NCBI RefSeq assembly: GCF_021325795.1
Contig: NZ_JAHPZX010000003.1
Coordinates: forward strand, 806,001-870,000
Direction of reading: 5' to 3'
From: Bordetella sp. LUAb4
Lineage (GTDB): Bacteria; Pseudomonadota; Gammaproteobacteria; Burkholderiales; Burkholderiaceae_B
DNA length: 64,000 bases
The position numbers and the translations under genes are program-made. Positions 37,258-47,539 of the stretch are shown piece after piece. Numbering within the stretch: the stretch's first letter is position 1; each line of letters starts with the position of its first letter. The notes beneath the pieces are model-generated. The model did not search any database. It saw only the letters and a program-made list of their open reading frames with translations, and was not told where the DNA came from.

Positions 37258-38256
37258 TTACTGGATCGTGATGTGCTTTTCGCTGATCAAGGTACCCCAA
37301 CGCTTGGACTCGCTGGCGATGAACGACGTGAAGTCTTGCGGTGATCCACCTGCGACTTCGCCACCTTCGGATTCCACGACGCGACGGTAGGCCGGATCCT
37401 TCAAGATCTCGTTGAGGTTGGTGTTGAGCTTGTCGATGATCGGTTGCGGAGTTCCCGCCGGCGCGATCACGCCGAACCAGTTGGAAGCCACCATGTTCGC
37501 GATACCCAGTTCCTTGAATGTCGGAATATTGGGCAACGCAGCCAGACGCGTGTCCGCGGAAACGGCAAGCAGCCTCAAGCGAGCTTGATCGCCCTGGGCG
37601 TTGGGCAGAAGCAGGCTTGGCAGTTCCAGGTAAAAGTCCACATTGCCCGCCATCAGGTCCCCCGCCGCGGGTGCGCCGCCTCGATAGGGGACGTGCGTGG
37701 CGTTGAAGCCGGCATTGTCCTTGAACAATTCGGTAATCAGCTGCGATGCACTGCCGGCGCCCGTGGACGCGAAATTGAGCTTCTTGGGATCCGCCTTCCC
37801 AGCCGCGATCAGATCGCCGGCGCTCTTGTAAGGGGACTGCGCATTGACCCCCAGCACCATGGCACCCCGTTCGAGCAGCAATATCGGGGCGATGCCTTTG
37901 TCCGGATCGAAGCCCAGATTGCTACCGTAGAGCGCCTTGTTGACCGACAGCGGAGCGAAGTTGCCCAGGCCGATGGTGTAGCCGTCCGGATTCGCACGGG
38001 CGATTTGCGCCGTACCGATATTGCCGCTGGCGCCCGGCTTGTTCTCGACCACCACCGCCACCTTCAGGCGCGTACTCAGCTGCTGGGCAATTTGTCGCGA
38101 GCGGGTGTCGGAACTGCCGCCGGCCGCATAAGGAACGATGAAGGTAATGGGTTTGGATGGGTAGGCATCCTGTGCCTGGCCGGGCGTGGCAATGAACAGC
38201 GCCAAGGCGCTCGCCAGCGCGAGCATGGATTTTCGGACGCTTGCATGGTTCCGCAT
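37258..38256 (-). CDS. Bug/TctC-family periplasmic substrate-binding protein
   Basis: A 332-residue exported binding protein. MRNHASVRKS plus a hydrophobic helix ending TPGQAQ is the signal. The mature part shows YPSKPITFIVPYAAGGSSD and VVVENKPGASGNIG. A divergent LysR gene starts 127 bp upstream and an amidase follows downstream, so its ligand is probably an amide or the carboxylate released from it. No TctAB genes are present. Confidence 0.9.
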   Translation of the reverse strand: MRNHASVRKSMLALASALALFIATPGQAQDAYPSKPITFIVPYAAGGSSDTRSRQIAQQLSTRLKVAVVVENKPGASGNIGTAQIARANPDGYTIGLGNFAPLSVNKALYGSNLGFDPDKGIAPILLLERGAMVLGVNAQSPYKSAGDLIAAGKADPKKLNFASTGAGSASQLITELFKDNAGFNATHVPYRGGAPAAGDLMAGNVDFYLELPSLLLPNAQGDQARLRLLAVSADTRLAALPNIPTFKELGIANMVASNWFGVIAPAGTPQPIIDKLNTNLNEILKDPAYRRVVESEGGEVAGGSPQDFTSFIASESKRWGTLISEKHITIQ

Positions 38257-39313: not shown

Positions 39314-40828
39314 TCACAGCAGTCCGCGCAGCAATGTCCCCTGGCGCTCGATCTCCGCCGGCCGCAGCCCGCTATAACCGATCACCACGCCGGGAGGCAG
39401 GGCTACCCGGCGGCAGAATTGGGCGATGAACTGCATGCTCAGCCCCTGGTCCTGAATCCTGGCCTGCACGGCCGCCAGATTGATGTCCGGCGGCAACCAC
39501 CATACCAGATGAAATCCCGCATGTTCGCCGCCGACGTGCAAATTGTCGCGGCCTACCGCAAGGGCCAGCACTTGCATCACCAGGTCGCGTTTTTGCGCAT
39601 ACACCGCCCGGGCTTTGCGGATATGGCGCGCGAAGCTCCCATCTTCCAGAAAGCGTGCCAAGGCGATCTGCTCGATCATGCCGTTGGATCGTCCCGTCGT
39701 CAGACGTGCTCGCGTGAACGCCGCTACCCATCGTTTTGGAAGCACGGCGTAGCCAATGCGCAGCGCGTTGAACATGGTCTTGTTGAAGCTGCCAAGATGG
39801 ATCACCCGGTCCGCCGTATCCAGGCTTTTCAAGGCCGCCAGCGGGGCAGCGTCGTAGTTGAATTCGCTGTCGTAGTCGTCCTCGATGATCCAGCAGTTCT
39901 CCTGCGCGGCCCAGGCCAGCAGGTCCAGGCGGCGGGACACCGGCATCGTGACGCCCACGGGCGATTGATGCGCGGGCGTGACATGTACCAGCTTCACGTT
40001 GCGCTGCCGCCTGGCGCGGTCTACCGAGAAGCCGTGTTCGTCGATGGCGATGGGCACGACCCGGGACGTGAACTGGCTGAACAAGGGCAGGGCGGTCAGG
40101 TAGCCCGGGTCTTCCACCAGCACCTGGTCTTGCGGTTCCAGCAGAACGCGGGCGCTCAAGTCCAGGCCGTCGCGGATGCCGGTGAGAATGACGACCTGAT
40201 CGGCGTCGCAGGAAATCCCGCGCGCCGCGCCCAGGTAACGTGCGACCTGTTCGCGCAAGGGGCGCCAACCCTGTGGCGCCTCATAGGCCAGTTGCTCGGG
40301 CGTCACGGCCTTCGCGCTTGCCAGCAGGCCTCTGCGCCAGGCCGCCATGGGGAATATCGATGCATCCGCGCTGCGGGCGGCGAACAAGGGTTGTGGGACG
40401 CGGTGTCCGTTGGCGGCAGGAGGGGCGTCCGACGGGATCGAGGCTGGCAATGGAGCGGGTTTGCCTCGGCCGGCACCCGCACCCGGGACCCCGGCCACGC
40501 CGTGGCTCTGGCCCGGCAACCCACGTCGGAAGAAGCGATCGGGGATGACCGCTGAGACGTAGGTTCCGGATCCCACCGTCCCGGTCGTATAGCCTTCGCT
40601 ACGCAGCTGGTCATACGCTGCCTCGACCGTGGACCGCGAGACGCTCCACCGTTGCGCCAGCGAGCGCGTCGAGGGCAGCCGTGTGCCCGCTGCCAGGGCG
40701 CCTTGCAGGATGCGCTCCTGGATCTGCCGATACACCCACGACTGCTTGGATTCCCCCGCCCGCGCCGGTGACGCCGGCAAATCCAGACTCGACTCGGCCT
40801 TGCGGTGAGAAGAAAGTGGCTTGGTCAT
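39314..40828 (-). CDS. MocR-type GntR regulator with aminotransferase domain
   Basis: A 504-residue MocR/PdxR-like regulator. The N-terminal GntR winged HTH (about 30-100) contains QERILQGALAAGTRLPSTRS and LAQRWSVSRSTVEAAYDQL. A fold-type I PLP aminotransferase-like domain follows, with EDDYDSEFNYD and the PLP lysine region HLGSFNKTMFNALRIGY. Members sense PLP, amino acids or related effectors. It is divergent from the reductase-M24 fusion gene, with 174 bp between, and is its likely regulator. Confidence 0.92.
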   Translation of the reverse strand: MTKPLSSHRKAESSLDLPASPARAGESKQSWVYRQIQERILQGALAAGTRLPSTRSLAQRWSVSRSTVEAAYDQLRSEGYTTGTVGSGTYVSAVIPDRFFRRGLPGQSHGVAGVPGAGAGRGKPAPLPASIPSDAPPAANGHRVPQPLFAARSADASIFPMAAWRRGLLASAKAVTPEQLAYEAPQGWRPLREQVARYLGAARGISCDADQVVILTGIRDGLDLSARVLLEPQDQVLVEDPGYLTALPLFSQFTSRVVPIAIDEHGFSVDRARRQRNVKLVHVTPAHQSPVGVTMPVSRRLDLLAWAAQENCWIIEDDYDSEFNYDAAPLAALKSLDTADRVIHLGSFNKTMFNALRIGYAVLPKRWVAAFTRARLTTGRSNGMIEQIALARFLEDGSFARHIRKARAVYAQKRDLVMQVLALAVGRDNLHVGGEHAGFHLVWWLPPDINLAAVQARIQDQGLSMQFIAQFCRRVALPPGVVIGYSGLRPAEIERQGTLLRGLL

Positions 40829-40863
40829 TTTTCTAAATATGGCTCTATTGATGAGGCCATTTT

Positions 40864-40983
40864 ATGGGTAACTTTGGTTTCCCATTGGCTTCCGATTTAG
40901 CTTCTTCTTTAGCTGCCCCTTTAGCCTCCCCCTTTGGCTGCCTCGCTAGCTTCCCCTTGGACTTCTCAAGTGTCGCTGCCTGA
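40864..40983 (+). CDS. possible 39-residue leader peptide upstream of the fusion gene
   Basis: ATG 40864 has GAGG eight bases upstream and an open frame of 39 codons rich in Leu-Ala-Ser repeats (PLASDLASSLAAPLASPFG), ending with TGA at 40981-40983, 19 bp before the fusion gene ATG. The DNA from 40896 to 40931 is a 12-bp tandem repeat (TTTAGC plus six pyrimidine-rich bases, three copies). It could be a translated leader, or simply repeat DNA in a promoter region. Confidence 0.25.
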   Translation: MGNFGFPLASDLASSLAAPLASPFGCLASFPLDFSSVAA

Positions 40984-41002
40984 GCGAATCCCGGATCCTT
41001 CG

Positions 41003-42826
41003 ATGAATACACGTACTGCTCGGCCCGTCACCATTACGCTCGAAACAGGCGCGTTCACCGCTCATGACCAGACGTCCATCCTGGATGCCGCGTTGGCCAG
41101 CGGTGCGCCGGTCCCGTTTTCCTGTCGGCGTGGCGAATGCGGATCCTGCCGCGCCCAGGTGCTGGCGGGAGAGTTCGAGCCTATCGTGGCGCCCACGGAG
41201 CGGACCTATGTGACCGCGAGCGACGAATTGCTGATGTGCCAATGTCGGGCGAGCAGTGACCTGACTCTGCGATTTCCCCATTGGCAGGCGCCTGAGCGGG
41301 CACCGGTTCAGCGCAGCGCCAAAGTGGTTTCGCGCCGTTCGATGACGGCCGGCGTGACGGAACTCATCATCGATGTCCAGGGACCAGAGCCCTTCGATTA
41401 CCGCCCGGGGCAGCATCTGCATATGTTGCTGAAAGACGGTAGCCGGCGTCCCTTCTCCATCGCCAATGCGCCCGGTAGCACGGGGCATGGACGCTTGCAC
41501 TTCCATATCCGGCGGATGCCCGGCGGGGTTTTTACCGACGGCCACCTGCCGGCCTTGATGCCGGGTGACATCTTGAACCTGGAAGGCCCGTACGGAGACT
41601 GCGTCTGGCCGTCCGCGCTGGCCGAGGACATCGAACACGTCGTTCTGCTGGCCACCGGTACTGGCTTCGCGGGTGTATTCCCCGTCCTTATGGCGGCCAT
41701 CGAAAGCCGGTGCCTGCAGTCCGTCACGCTGTATTGGGGCAGCCGGGAGCTGGAGGACTGCTATGCTGCCGGACTGCTGAATGCGCTGCAAGGCAAGGAC
41801 ACGGTATTCCGCTGGGAGCCGGTAGTAAGTAACAGCCACGGCAGCAACAGCAGCAACAGCAGCAGCAGCACCGACGCAGACGACCCCGGCAACCCCGCTC
41901 TTATCGCCCCTTCTGTCTACGTGCAGGACGCAGCGGCACGCGCCTCCCACGACTGGGCCCGCACCATGGTCTATGCTTGCGGCAACCCGCAAATGGTCCG
42001 TGCCGCCCGCCGGCAATTACAGGCGCAGGGCCTGCCCGCGCATCGCTTCCGATCCGAAGCATTCCTGCCGGCCGCCGACGCTCCACCAACCGGCGCGACC
42101 GCGACGTCACTCCCCAAGCACCCTTGGGAACAAGTCGGGGCGCGCTTCACGCTGGCGGGCATCCTGCAAGCGCGGCAACGTTCCATCACCGCCGTGCGCG
42201 AAATCGCTGCCTTGATACGCCCTGGCATGACGACGGCGCAGGCCATCGCGCTGGCGGACGAGCACTTGCGCGGCATGGGGGCATCGCACAACTGGCATCC
42301 CACCTACATTCGATTCGGCGCCGACTCGCAATCGCCGGCCGTGCAACCCACTGACCGTCAGCGCATCCTGGGTGAAGACGACATCTTCGTGGTCGACATC
42401 GGTCCCGTCTGGGGCAACTACGAAGGCGACTATGGCGACACCTACACGACGGGTGCCAGCGCGGACCAAGCGCGTTGCGCCGAGGCGGCGCGGCTGGTGT
42501 TCCAGCGCACACGGCTGGCCTGGCTGGATGGCTTGACGGGTGCGGCGCTCTACGACGTGGCGGACGAGTACGCGCGCGAATACGGTTGCACCATCGTGCG
42601 CGAAATCCCCGGCCATCGCGTTGCCGATTTTCCTCACGCGCTGTATGGCAAGCATCAACTGGCCGCGGCGGACTTCGTTCCCAGCGATGGCATCTGGGTC
42701 TTGGAAATTCAGGTGCGTGACCTGCGCCTGCCGATCGGCGCATTCTACGAGGACGTGCTGTTGCGCGATGGCGCAGTCATCGCCGGCGCTGCCGAGACCG
42801 CCGCTGTAGGCACCGCTGTCATCTGA
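41003..42826 (+). CDS. fusion of ferredoxin-type flavin reductase and M24 metallopeptidase-like domain
   Basis: A 607-residue chain with four modules. Residues 8-90 are a plant-type 2Fe-2S ferredoxin (C41, C46, C49, C79). About 100-205 is an FAD-binding domain with RRPFSIAN at 148-155, and 212-355 an NAD(P)-binding domain (LLATGTGFAG, then YACGNP). A linker to about 375 leads into an M24 fold to 595 with likely metal ligands D465, D476 (or D479), H538, E568 and E583. The first three modules match CDP-6-deoxyglucoseen-reductase/phenol-hydroxylase-reductase types. A Ser/Asn-rich insert (residues 276-290) sits inside the NAD domain. No internal stop or frame break separates the halves. It is divergent from the MocR gene. 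Confidence 0.85.
   Translation: MNTRTARPVTITLETGAFTAHDQTSILDAALASGAPVPFSCRRGECGSCRAQVLAGEFEPIVAPTERTYVTASDELLMCQCRASSDLTLRFPHWQAPERAPVQRSAKVVSRRSMTAGVTELIIDVQGPEPFDYRPGQHLHMLLKDGSRRPFSIANAPGSTGHGRLHFHIRRMPGGVFTDGHLPALMPGDILNLEGPYGDCVWPSALAEDIEHVVLLATGTGFAGVFPVLMAAIESRCLQSVTLYWGSRELEDCYAAGLLNALQGKDTVFRWEPVVSNSHGSNSSNSSSSTDADDPGNPALIAPSVYVQDAAARASHDWARTMVYACGNPQMVRAARRQLQAQGLPAHRFRSEAFLPAADAPPTGATATSLPKHPWEQVGARFTLAGILQARQRSITAVREIAALIRPGMTTAQAIALADEHLRGMGASHNWHPTYIRFGADSQSPAVQPTDRQRILGEDDIFVVDIGPVWGNYEGDYGDTYTTGASADQARCAEAARLVFQRTRLAWLDGLTGAALYDVADEYAREYGCTIVREIPGHRVADFPHALYGKHQLAAADFVPSDGIWVLEIQVRDLRLPIGAFYEDVLLRDGAVIAGAAETAAVGTAVI
41828..41871 (+). repeat. AGC/AAC trinucleotide repeat inside the fusion gene
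   Basis: A run of AGC and AAC triplets encodes the Ser/Asn-rich insert SNSSNSSSST within the NAD domain. It stays in frame and should give a flexible loop. Such triplet runs can change length by slippage. Confidence 0.7.
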
Positions 42827-43911: not shown

Positions 43912-44946
43912 GTGACCAAGGGTTCCAGACGTATCGCCTTGTCCCGCGCGCGGCTTTCATTCGCCTGCGTGCTGTTGGGTATCCCCCTGGGTAGCTTCCT
44001 GGTGGGCTTCGCGGGGGCCGCGCCCGCCGCGGCAGCCTATCCCGACCATCCCATCAAGCTCATCGTTCCCTTCGCTGCCGGGAGCGCCGCCGACACCTTG
44101 TCGCGCGCGGTGGCGTCGGCGCTGGCCGAACAACTGGGCCAGCCCCTGGTGGTGGACAACAAGGGCGGGGCGGGCGGCACTATAGGCACGACGGACATCG
44201 CCCGTGCGAAGCCGGACGGCTACACCCTGGGCATTGCCGCGCAGGGCACCTTCGTCAACAATCAGGTGCTGTATAGCGCGCCCGGCTACGACTCCATCAA
44301 GGACTTCAGCTTCATCAGCGAGATCGCCGATGTGCAGAACCTTCTGGTCGTGTCCGAGAAGTCGCCTTATCAGACGGCCTCCGCGCTGCTGGACGCCATC
44401 AAGGCCAAGCCGCCGGAGACCTTCCGCTATTCCTCCAGCGGCGTGGGTACCAGCCACCATATCGCCGGCGCCACGGTCGCGAAGTATCTGCACAAGCCGC
44501 TCATGCACGTGCCCTACACGGGCGCACCGCAGGGCCTGAGCGCCATCATCAGCGGCGATGTGGATATGGGCCTCTACAACCTGCCCGCCGCCATCGGCCT
44601 GGTGAAGGGGGGCAAGCTGCGTCCGCTGGCCGTGACGGGTCCCAAGCGCTCGACGCTGCTGCCGGATGTGCCCACCTTGGACGAGAGCGGCCTCAAGGGC
44701 TACTCGGTCACCCTCTGGTGGGGTCTGGTAGGCCCGGCCGGGCTGCCGTCCGACGTTTCCGCACGTCTGTATGGCGCGTTGAACACGGTCATGAGCAATC
44801 CGGCCTTGCGCGACAAGCTGATCAGCCAGGGCTTCACCCTGCCCGATACCCCCATCCCCAAACCCGCGGCCTTCCAGGACCTGGTGCGCCAGGACCTCGC
44901 GACATGGGTGCCGGTTCTCAAGGAACTGGGCACGGCCGCGCAGTGA
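43912..44946 (+). CDS. Bug/TctC-family periplasmic substrate-binding protein
   Basis: A 344-residue exported binding protein starting at GTG 43912, with AAGGAGA just upstream. The signal runs to about residue 42 (AAPAAAAYPDHP). Family marks: YPDHPIKLIVPFAAGSAAD and LVVDNKGGAGGTIG. First gene of an operon that continues with an MmgE/PrpD protein, a second Bug protein and a beta-hydroxyacid dehydrogenase. Two Bug proteins in one operon suggest two related ligands or high- and low-affinity capture. Confidence 0.9.
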   Translation: MTKGSRRIALSRARLSFACVLLGIPLGSFLVGFAGAAPAAAAYPDHPIKLIVPFAAGSAADTLSRAVASALAEQLGQPLVVDNKGGAGGTIGTTDIARAKPDGYTLGIAAQGTFVNNQVLYSAPGYDSIKDFSFISEIADVQNLLVVSEKSPYQTASALLDAIKAKPPETFRYSSSGVGTSHHIAGATVAKYLHKPLMHVPYTGAPQGLSAIISGDVDMGLYNLPAAIGLVKGGKLRPLAVTGPKRSTLLPDVPTLDESGLKGYSVTLWWGLVGPAGLPSDVSARLYGALNTVMSNPALRDKLISQGFTLPDTPIPKPAAFQDLVRQDLATWVPVLKELGTAAQ

Positions 44947-46537: not shown

Positions 46538-47539
46538 ATGAAACGACGCATCGCATCCGCATTTGCCGGCATCGCCATGAGCATGGGGCTGAGCTTGGCC
46601 CCAGGTCTGATCAACACCGCGGCCGCCGCCGACAGCTTTCCGTCCAAACCCGTCACCATCATCGTCGGCGTGGCGCCCGGCGGCAGCCTGGACGCGTTGG
46701 CCCGGCTGGTGGCCACCGAACTGGGCAAGGTCACCAACAACACCTTCGTGGTGGAGAACGTCACCGGCGCCGGCGGCCTGTTGGGCTTCCAGCGGCTGGC
46801 GCGGTCGGCGCCGGATGGCTATACGCTGATGTTCAGCAACCAGTCCATGGTGCTAATTCCCTTGCTCTATCCCAAGGCCGGCCTGGACATCGTGAAGGAC
46901 ACGACGGCGATAGGCACGGTGGCCAATGTGCCCATGGTGCTCAGCGTGAGCAACCAGAGCGGCATCAAGGATCTACCCTCCATGCTGAAGGGCATGCGCA
47001 GCGGTGAACTGAAGCTGTACTTCGGTTCGGGCGGCCCCGGCACCACCGCTCACCTGGCCGAGGCGCTGTTCCTGCAGATGGCCGACGTGAAAGCCGAGCT
47101 GATCCAGTACCGTGGCTCAGGTCCGGCGATCACCGACTTGATCGGCGGCACCATCCAGGCGGTGCTCGATCAGACGGTGACCATGCTGCCCCTGCACAAC
47201 GGCAAGCAGATCAAGGCCATCGCCGTGGCGTCCAAGACGCGCCTGCCGCAGATGCCGGATGTGCCCACCTTCGCCGAGGGCGGCGTGCCGCAGTTCGACC
47301 TGCAGATATGGAATGGCCTGGTCGGGCCCAAAGGCATGCCCAAGGATGTCGTGGACAAGCTGGCCGAGGCGGTATCCAAGGCGGTGCAGACGCCTGAGTT
47401 CCGCGCGCGTATCGATACGCTGGCCGCGCGCATTCCGTCGGCGGAGGAACGCAGCCCGGCGAATTTCACGAGTACGCTGCAACGCGACCAGATGCAATTC
47501 GCCGAGCTGGCCAAGAAGATCGGTCTGGAAGCACGTTGA
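46538..47539 (+). CDS. Bug/TctC-family periplasmic substrate-binding protein
   Basis: A 333-residue exported binding protein with a strong Shine-Dalgarno (GAGGAGAGGAGA) before ATG 46538. The signal ends near AAAADSFPSKPV. Mature segments PVTIIVGVAPGGSLDALAR and VVENVTGAGGLLG are family-typical. It is the second Bug gene of the operon, followed 43 bp later by a beta-hydroxyacid dehydrogenase. Confidence 0.9.
   Translation: MKRRIASAFAGIAMSMGLSLAPGLINTAAAADSFPSKPVTIIVGVAPGGSLDALARLVATELGKVTNNTFVVENVTGAGGLLGFQRLARSAPDGYTLMFSNQSMVLIPLLYPKAGLDIVKDTTAIGTVANVPMVLSVSNQSGIKDLPSMLKGMRSGELKLYFGSGGPGTTAHLAEALFLQMADVKAELIQYRGSGPAITDLIGGTIQAVLDQTVTMLPLHNGKQIKAIAVASKTRLPQMPDVPTFAEGGVPQFDLQIWNGLVGPKGMPKDVVDKLAEAVSKAVQTPEFRARIDTLAARIPSAEERSPANFTSTLQRDQMQFAELAKKIGLEAR

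Follow-up and report, generated by a model that had tools for sequence, protein, structure and literature searches.

A conserved MocR-linked module joins a flavin/[2Fe-2S] reductase to a short M24 domain and suggests an undescribed redox enzyme

Several described systems resemble parts of the locus reported here, which was found in a window of 64,000 nucleotides (the whole stretch of DNA that was analysed) from Bordetella sp. LUAb4 and encodes a reductase and an M24 domain in one chain. Type I methionine aminopeptidase (MetAP) and the catalytic domain of aminopeptidase P and prolidase are like its M24 half in their pita-bread family profile, in their five metal ligands, and in a His at the second conserved position (H545); however, the M24 half scores below the MetAP cut-off, does not conserve the equivalent of MetAP His79, has no creatinase-type N-terminal domain detectable by Pfam, and is paired with a reductase. 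Reductases of the BenC, AntC, MmoC, and PaaE types have the same Fer2-FAD-NAD order and cofactor motifs as the reductase half, whereas the fusion falls far below the cut-offs of the named models, has no adjoining oxygenase, and carries the M24 domain in the same chain. Self-sufficient oxygenases of the P450 BM3 and P450-PFOR types also hold a fused reductase and a metal centre in one chain; here, the metal domain is M24 and not P450, and oxygenase activity is only proposed. Hydrolase folds have been reused as dinuclear-metal oxygenases in CmlA (beta-lactamase fold), MIOX (HD fold), and AibH2 (amidohydrolase fold), all of which share with the present case a hydrolase fold, a dinuclear site, and a supply of electrons; yet none is built on the M24 fold, for which such chemistry is proposed here. 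With regard to regulation, EnuR together with the ectoine hydrolase EutD/DoeA provides an example of a MocR regulator that controls an M24 protein for the use of amines or amino acids, in a system not known to include a reductase half. EnuR is classed as a MocR/GabR-type regulator (PMC8739950). Unlike EutD/DoeA, the M24 domain of the fusion is of the short form, and no other ectoine gene adjoins the fusion. The literature searched, which lay mostly outside subscription journals, yielded no description of a reductase-M24 architecture and no oxygenase of the pita-bread fold.

An earlier note on this DNA, made from the sequence alone, had proposed a single-chain reductase-M24 fusion, and this proposal was borne out: the 607-residue product is read from one open frame, and its Fer2, FAD_binding_6, NAD_binding_1, and Peptidase_M24 domains all score above the Pfam gathering cut-offs (Table 1). 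The four cysteines assigned by the note to the iron-sulfur cluster (C41, C46, C49, and C79) were likewise found to be kept in all 56 aligned fusion rows. Purifying selection acts on both halves of the fusion: across six pairs, dN/dS is 0.11-0.29 in the reductase part, compared with 0.04-0.10 in the M24 part, which is the more constrained in every pair.

Table 1. Features of the reductase-M24 locus, in window coordinates.
Feature	Position	Strand	Basis
MocR-type regulator, GntR plus aminotransferase fold (Aminotran_1_2), divergent	39314..40828	-	Pfam; conserved neighbour
Control region, 174 bp, MocR to fusion	40829..41002	.	
Putative MocR operator, ATGGCTCTATT-N6-GCCATT	40839..40861	+	Alignment of 10 junctions
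Fused CDS, 607 aa: [2Fe-2S] ferredoxin-FAD-NAD(P)H reductase-M24	41003..42826	+	Frame without internal stop
Fer2 domain, residues 18-83; cluster ligands C41, C46, C49, C79	41054..41251	+	Pfam
FAD_binding_6, residues 107-200; R149-x-F-S	41321..41602	+	Pfam
NAD_binding_1, residues 215-336; ATGTGFAG, YACGN	41645..42010	+	Pfam
Ser/Asn-rich insert within NAD domain, residues 276-298	41828..41896	+	Sequence; not scored as conserved
Reductase-M24 linker, residues about 355-386	42065..42160	+	Between Pfam domains; frame unbroken
Short, methionine-aminopeptidase-like M24 domain, residues 387-590	42161..42772	+	Pfam match 387-540

The distribution of the fusion was examined in the window's family (f1, 268 genomes) and in a distant genus (g204, 398 genomes). 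Within the family, strong matches to the M24 half were detected in 33 genomes, with the reductase half preceding M24 in 27 and a stand-alone M24 only in the other six. The fused frame is unbroken in 26 of the 27 module genomes; the copy in G002 has one in-frame TAG (L066, 9642-9644) between the FAD/NAD part and M24, with the MocR gene and the junction kept. In g204, 53 genomes matched, including one with a stand-alone M24 (G1356) and 52 with frames long enough for the fusion; 29 of these 52 loci were read, and each of the 29 gives a single continuous match to the fusion that is longer than 500 residues and free of stops. The fused set that was read comprises 56 loci (27 from the family and 29 from g204), with unbroken frames in 55 genomes. 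Wider samples gave (i) M24 matches in 13 of 399 genomes of the order, fused only in the window genome and split in G339 and G363; (ii) further fusions in two of 398 genomes of the phylum (G922 and G944); and (iii) a match to the window genome alone among 369 genomes of the class. The plasmid collection held nothing covering 80% of the query and, for a g204 fusion query, nothing at 1e-60, while phages gave a single weak match, to the reductase half. At L072 (8240-10174, in G031), the reductase half is several dozen residues longer (644 residues called), and its FAD domain was not reported by Pfam at 0.001.

These counts bear on whether the fusion is genuine. The earlier note had considered that the two halves might be separate genes in close relatives, joined here through a sequencing error that shifted the frame. 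No frame difference was found at this locus, and sequencing error and mis-assembly were rejected given the recurrence of fused frames in 55 genomes of two distant groups. Relatives with the halves as separate genes do exist, in four genomes, but these are distant and their genes still lie side by side. A broader form of the same doubt, in which the fusion is spurious or a neutral joining without joint function, could appeal to the broken copy in G002, but is countered by the 55 fused genomes, by the purifying selection on both halves, and by the occurrence of the same pairing in unfused form; because of this conservation it can be regarded as already refuted, with a negligible chance of being correct.

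The unfused trio was identified in three genomes of one family (G363, G1408, and G1436) and one genome of another (G339), with the gene order MocR, divergent reductase, M24. The split reductase is built FAD-NAD-Fer2, such that its ferredoxin domain is C-terminal rather than N-terminal as in the fusion, and the spacing of its cluster cysteines is C-x5-C-x2-C in all four genomes compared with C-x4-C-x2-C in the fusion. Two split M24 proteins were scanned against PF00557 and scored 57.7 and 64.0 bits. Since the trio exists unfused, the pairing of reductase and M24 is independent of the fusion. The conserved module consists of a MocR gene and, divergent from it, one gene or an operon that encodes a flavin/[2Fe-2S] reductase together with a short M24 protein. 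The wide distribution of the architecture, and the existence of an unfused form with its reductase built in another order, go beyond what the earlier note had reported. In the M24 tree, the fused M24 domains form one clade (100/99) and three split M24 proteins another (100/97; G339 not included), with the split clade adjoining nine stand-alone M24 proteins. For the FAD-NAD part, a single clade of fused and split sequences was not rejected (p-AU 0.143), the GPxGD and ATGTG motifs are shared in part, and the module MocRs of g204, G002, and the split copies group together; two independent origins of the partnership with the reductase are therefore not claimed. Judging from the sequences, either one origin with later loss or two gains may account for the partnership. 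Two transporter genes were also noted: an amino-acid permease gene ahead of the split reductase in G1436, the sole addition to that operon, and a gene for a ProP-type betaine/proline transporter behind the fusion in G002. On the basis of these two genes, the company kept by the module points to amino-acid-like compounds.

The divergent MocR gene that the earlier note had described was confirmed by its GntR and Aminotran_1_2 domains, and was found to adjoin 55 of the 56 fused loci (27 of 27 in the family and 28 of 29 in g204), the only locus read without an adjoining MocR gene being L135 of G1399. Against the NCBIfam PdxR model NF052282 (cut-off 320), the window MocR scored 405 bits and two relatives 340.2 and 359.8 bits; control of pyridoxine genes by the window MocR is not suggested by its gene context. 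According to a survey of MocR regulons (PMC5320631), redox enzymes of unknown pathways are under the control of many MocR groups. The MocR proteins of the module fall into two groups, namely the window's clade and a single clade that holds those of g204, G002, and the unfused modules. For the window's clade, the junction consensus ATGGCyCTATT-N(5-8)-GCCATT was detected in 23 of the 27 module genomes of the family and in none of 229 loci outside the module; the window holds one copy of this putative operator, compared with none in 100 shuffles of the window. The junction of the other MocR group, AACTGGAnGTT, is exact in 25 of the 29 g204 loci, in G002, and in two of the four split modules, and is also matched by two unrelated loci. 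Co-occurrence of the MocR gene, which the earlier note had put forward as a check, was thus upheld, as the gene belongs to the fusion by its adjacency at 55 of 56 loci plus the conserved putative operator. Between this element and the start codon, about five tandem copies of a 12-bp unit (TTTAGCTGCCCC, 69% matches) were observed at 40896-40958 of the window; they are absent from the aligned junction of G005.

Stretches of about 20 kb around the modules were mapped for further neighbours, and none but MocR was common across the fused groups. A recurring neighbour that might name the substrate was sought and not found: the LysR, TctC, and MmgE/PrpD genes that flank the window copy are repeated in G005 only. 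Many genes for TctC-like periplasmic binding proteins, named by eye, lie around the module in the window (37258-38256, 43912-44946, 46538-47539, and others).

In the M24 half, the earlier note had listed plausible metal ligands and left a choice between D476 and D479. The set was found to be intact: D465, D476, H538, E568, and E583 are invariant in all 91 rows of the alignment (57 fused, drawn from 55 genomes, plus 3 split and 31 stand-alone). D465, D476, and H538 were placed on MetAP by profile; a MAFFT alignment that included a MetAP-like protein served for E568 and E583. In the profile alignment, D476 coincides with the second metal-binding Asp of MetAP, so that D476 is taken as the ligand; D479 was rejected, as it varies among stand-alone homologues. 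Likewise invariant in the 91 rows are W431, H432, R437, E474, C492, R539, and H545. Of 88 M24 proteins, two (L095 and L105) had been set aside as too short. The M24 part of the fusion scores 67.8 bits against PF00557 (cut-off 23), and its top-ranking relatives of known structure are MetAP, aminopeptidase P, and prolidase. The type I MetAP model TIGR00500, with a cut-off of 171.35, gave 26.1 bits for the whole protein and 29.2 bits for the M24 part. Residue 448, which by sequence alignment falls at the position of MetAP His79 and aminopeptidase P His243, both with catalytic roles, is found as Q (40 rows), E (12), H (3), or K (2) in the fused proteins, as A in the three split proteins, and mostly as Q or E in the stand-alone proteins. 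The suggestion of the earlier note that this domain hydrolyses peptides or small amides is therefore unsupported as it was stated, given a score far below the MetAP cut-off and a catalytic His position that is not conserved as His.

Stand-alone M24 proteins carry the same ligands, and only one of the 26 stretches around them (L142) was found to have a ferredoxin motif, at a distance of about 9 kb, according to a simple gene caller that may miss genes. No MocR gene adjoins a stand-alone M24 in these stretches; at one locus (L080), a MocR gene lies about 2.4 kb away. Because the ligands are shared by proteins that mostly have no reductase nearby, the ligand set alone needs no electrons. Tyrosine at position 435 is found in 57 of 57 fused rows and four of four split M24 proteins but in none of 34 stand-alone proteins; two of 15 other subsets also gave one column of this kind, so Y435 is a hint only. 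Other features of the stand-alone loci include a regulator of the GlxA type (DJ-1/PfpI plus AraC) alongside M24 at seven loci (L062, L076, L077, L079, L080, L082, and L083), unlike the MocR of the module, and, at L145, L152, and L155, a following gene for a small protein of one cluster, which at L145, the locus scanned, is gamma-glutamyl cyclotransferase-like (PF06094).

An M24 domain that needs no electrons for its chemistry could nonetheless be partnered with a reductase for upkeep, the M24 protein being a ferrous hydrolase and the reductase doing nothing more than re-reducing a metal oxidised by O2, with no electrons used in turnover. In keeping with this explanation, Fe(II) can support the activity of methionine aminopeptidases, none of the M24 ligands is missing, and the model of the maintenance ferredoxin YfaE gives a weak match to the Fer2 part (36.8 bits, cut-off 75). 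We nevertheless consider it quite unlikely, since His is not conserved where MetAP has its catalytic His, a full three-domain NAD(P)H reductase seems more than upkeep would need, and the stand-alone relatives manage with no reductase nearby.

The reductase half was matched most closely, among named models, by BenC (106.9 bits, cut-off 430), AntC (106 bits, cut-off 402), and MmoC (98 bits, cut-off 500), all far below their cut-offs; among proteins of known structure, the closest are a P450 reductase and the reductases of toluene and benzoate oxygenases. A reductase of this oxygenase-serving kind could feed an oxygenase encoded elsewhere in the genome, in line with the pathway tether that the earlier note had raised, with the M24 domain hydrolysing the oxygenase product and the fusion only coupling the two steps and their control. 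That related bacteria have M24 with no adjoining reductase is what would be expected on this account if the M24 chemistry needs no electrons. In a survey of 53 module genomes that covered PF00848 and PF02332, PF00848 oxygenases were detected in all 53, which makes an acceptor in trans possible. On the other side, the multicomponent diiron hydroxylases of PF02332, the usual partners of MmoC-type reductases, were present in only four of the 53 genomes and absent from 49, and the mapped stretches of about 20 kb show no recurrent oxygenase gene next to the module. Moreover, in G1338, a genome that lacks PF02332, each of the two PF00848 proteins is encoded beside a reductase of its own (GbcA-GbcB in one case), and these proteins are only 24-31% identical to the Rieske proteins of the window genome (G000) and G363; at this level of identity, there is no obvious partner common to these genomes. 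The explanation by an external oxygenase draws some support from a Rieske oxygenase-like protein (PF00848) that is common to the window genome and the split-module genomes G363, G1408, and G1436, and that has no NCBIfam name above 1e-20. On balance, we regard it as an unlikely explanation, though the strongest of the rivals. The gene for this Rieske protein lies at L227 3507-4664 on contig C17 of the window genome, with counterparts at L224, L225, and L226; the proteins of G000 and G363 are 54% identical, no NCBIfam match was obtained at 1e-20 for the two that were scanned, and no reductase was recognised alongside.

Direct reduction of a substrate by the reductase half was also considered. 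Candidates for the group reduced include N-O and S-O bonds and a bound metal; hydrolysis of the product, or elimination from it, would follow at the M24 domain. The M24 fold does include non-hydrolytic and non-peptide members (the DMSP lyase DddP, creatinase, and ectoine hydrolase), and models of NAD(P)H-flavin reductases match the reductase half too (PRK08051, 87.2 bits, cut-off 230). However, both builds of the reductase retain a [2Fe-2S] exit, which direct two-electron reduction by the flavin would not need; this explanation is judged improbable.

The same feature argues for a metal centre as the acceptor, which fits better than a two-electron acceptor because the one-electron carrier is kept in both builds, at opposite ends of the chain. 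Besides the cluster, the only metal centre of the module is the predicted carboxylate-rich dinuclear site of M24. Overall, the recurrence of the reductase-M24 pair, fused or neighbouring, with the same type of regulator, suggests an undescribed redox enzyme, and the partnership itself is well supported; in some way, the reductase probably serves the M24 protein. The acceptor, the O2 chemistry, and the substrate we infer, along the following lines. NAD(P)H would reduce the FAD, and the FAD would in turn reduce the [2Fe-2S] domain, from which single electrons would pass to the dinuclear metal centre at D465, D476, H538, E568, and E583. The reduced M24 metal, most likely iron, may then activate O2 and oxidise a small amine or amino-acid-like substrate, and MocR, as a PLP-type sensor, would turn the gene on in the presence of such a compound. 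To this oxygenase-like mechanism as a whole, as read from sequence comparison, we assign a probability of roughly 0.45. Its boldest step would be O2 activation at the M24 metals, which is suggested by the type of reductase and by analogy with other hydrolase folds. As a tentative proposal that we place short of even odds, the module may represent a new class of oxygenase, in which an M24 pita-bread fold with an O2-activating, carboxylate-bridged dinuclear centre is served by its own NAD(P)H-FAD-[2Fe-2S] reductase, in one chain or as two components, in MocR-controlled amine catabolism.

M24 proteins are annotated as peptidases in genomes, and a dedicated one-electron reductase in a subgroup of them would mean that the fold also performs redox chemistry. 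Such redox reuse of hydrolase folds has precedent in the beta-lactamase, HD, and amidohydrolase folds. The fusion, as a single soluble protein, lends itself to a direct test of the idea; if the proposal is true, a function would be named for the module in the 55 fused genomes read.
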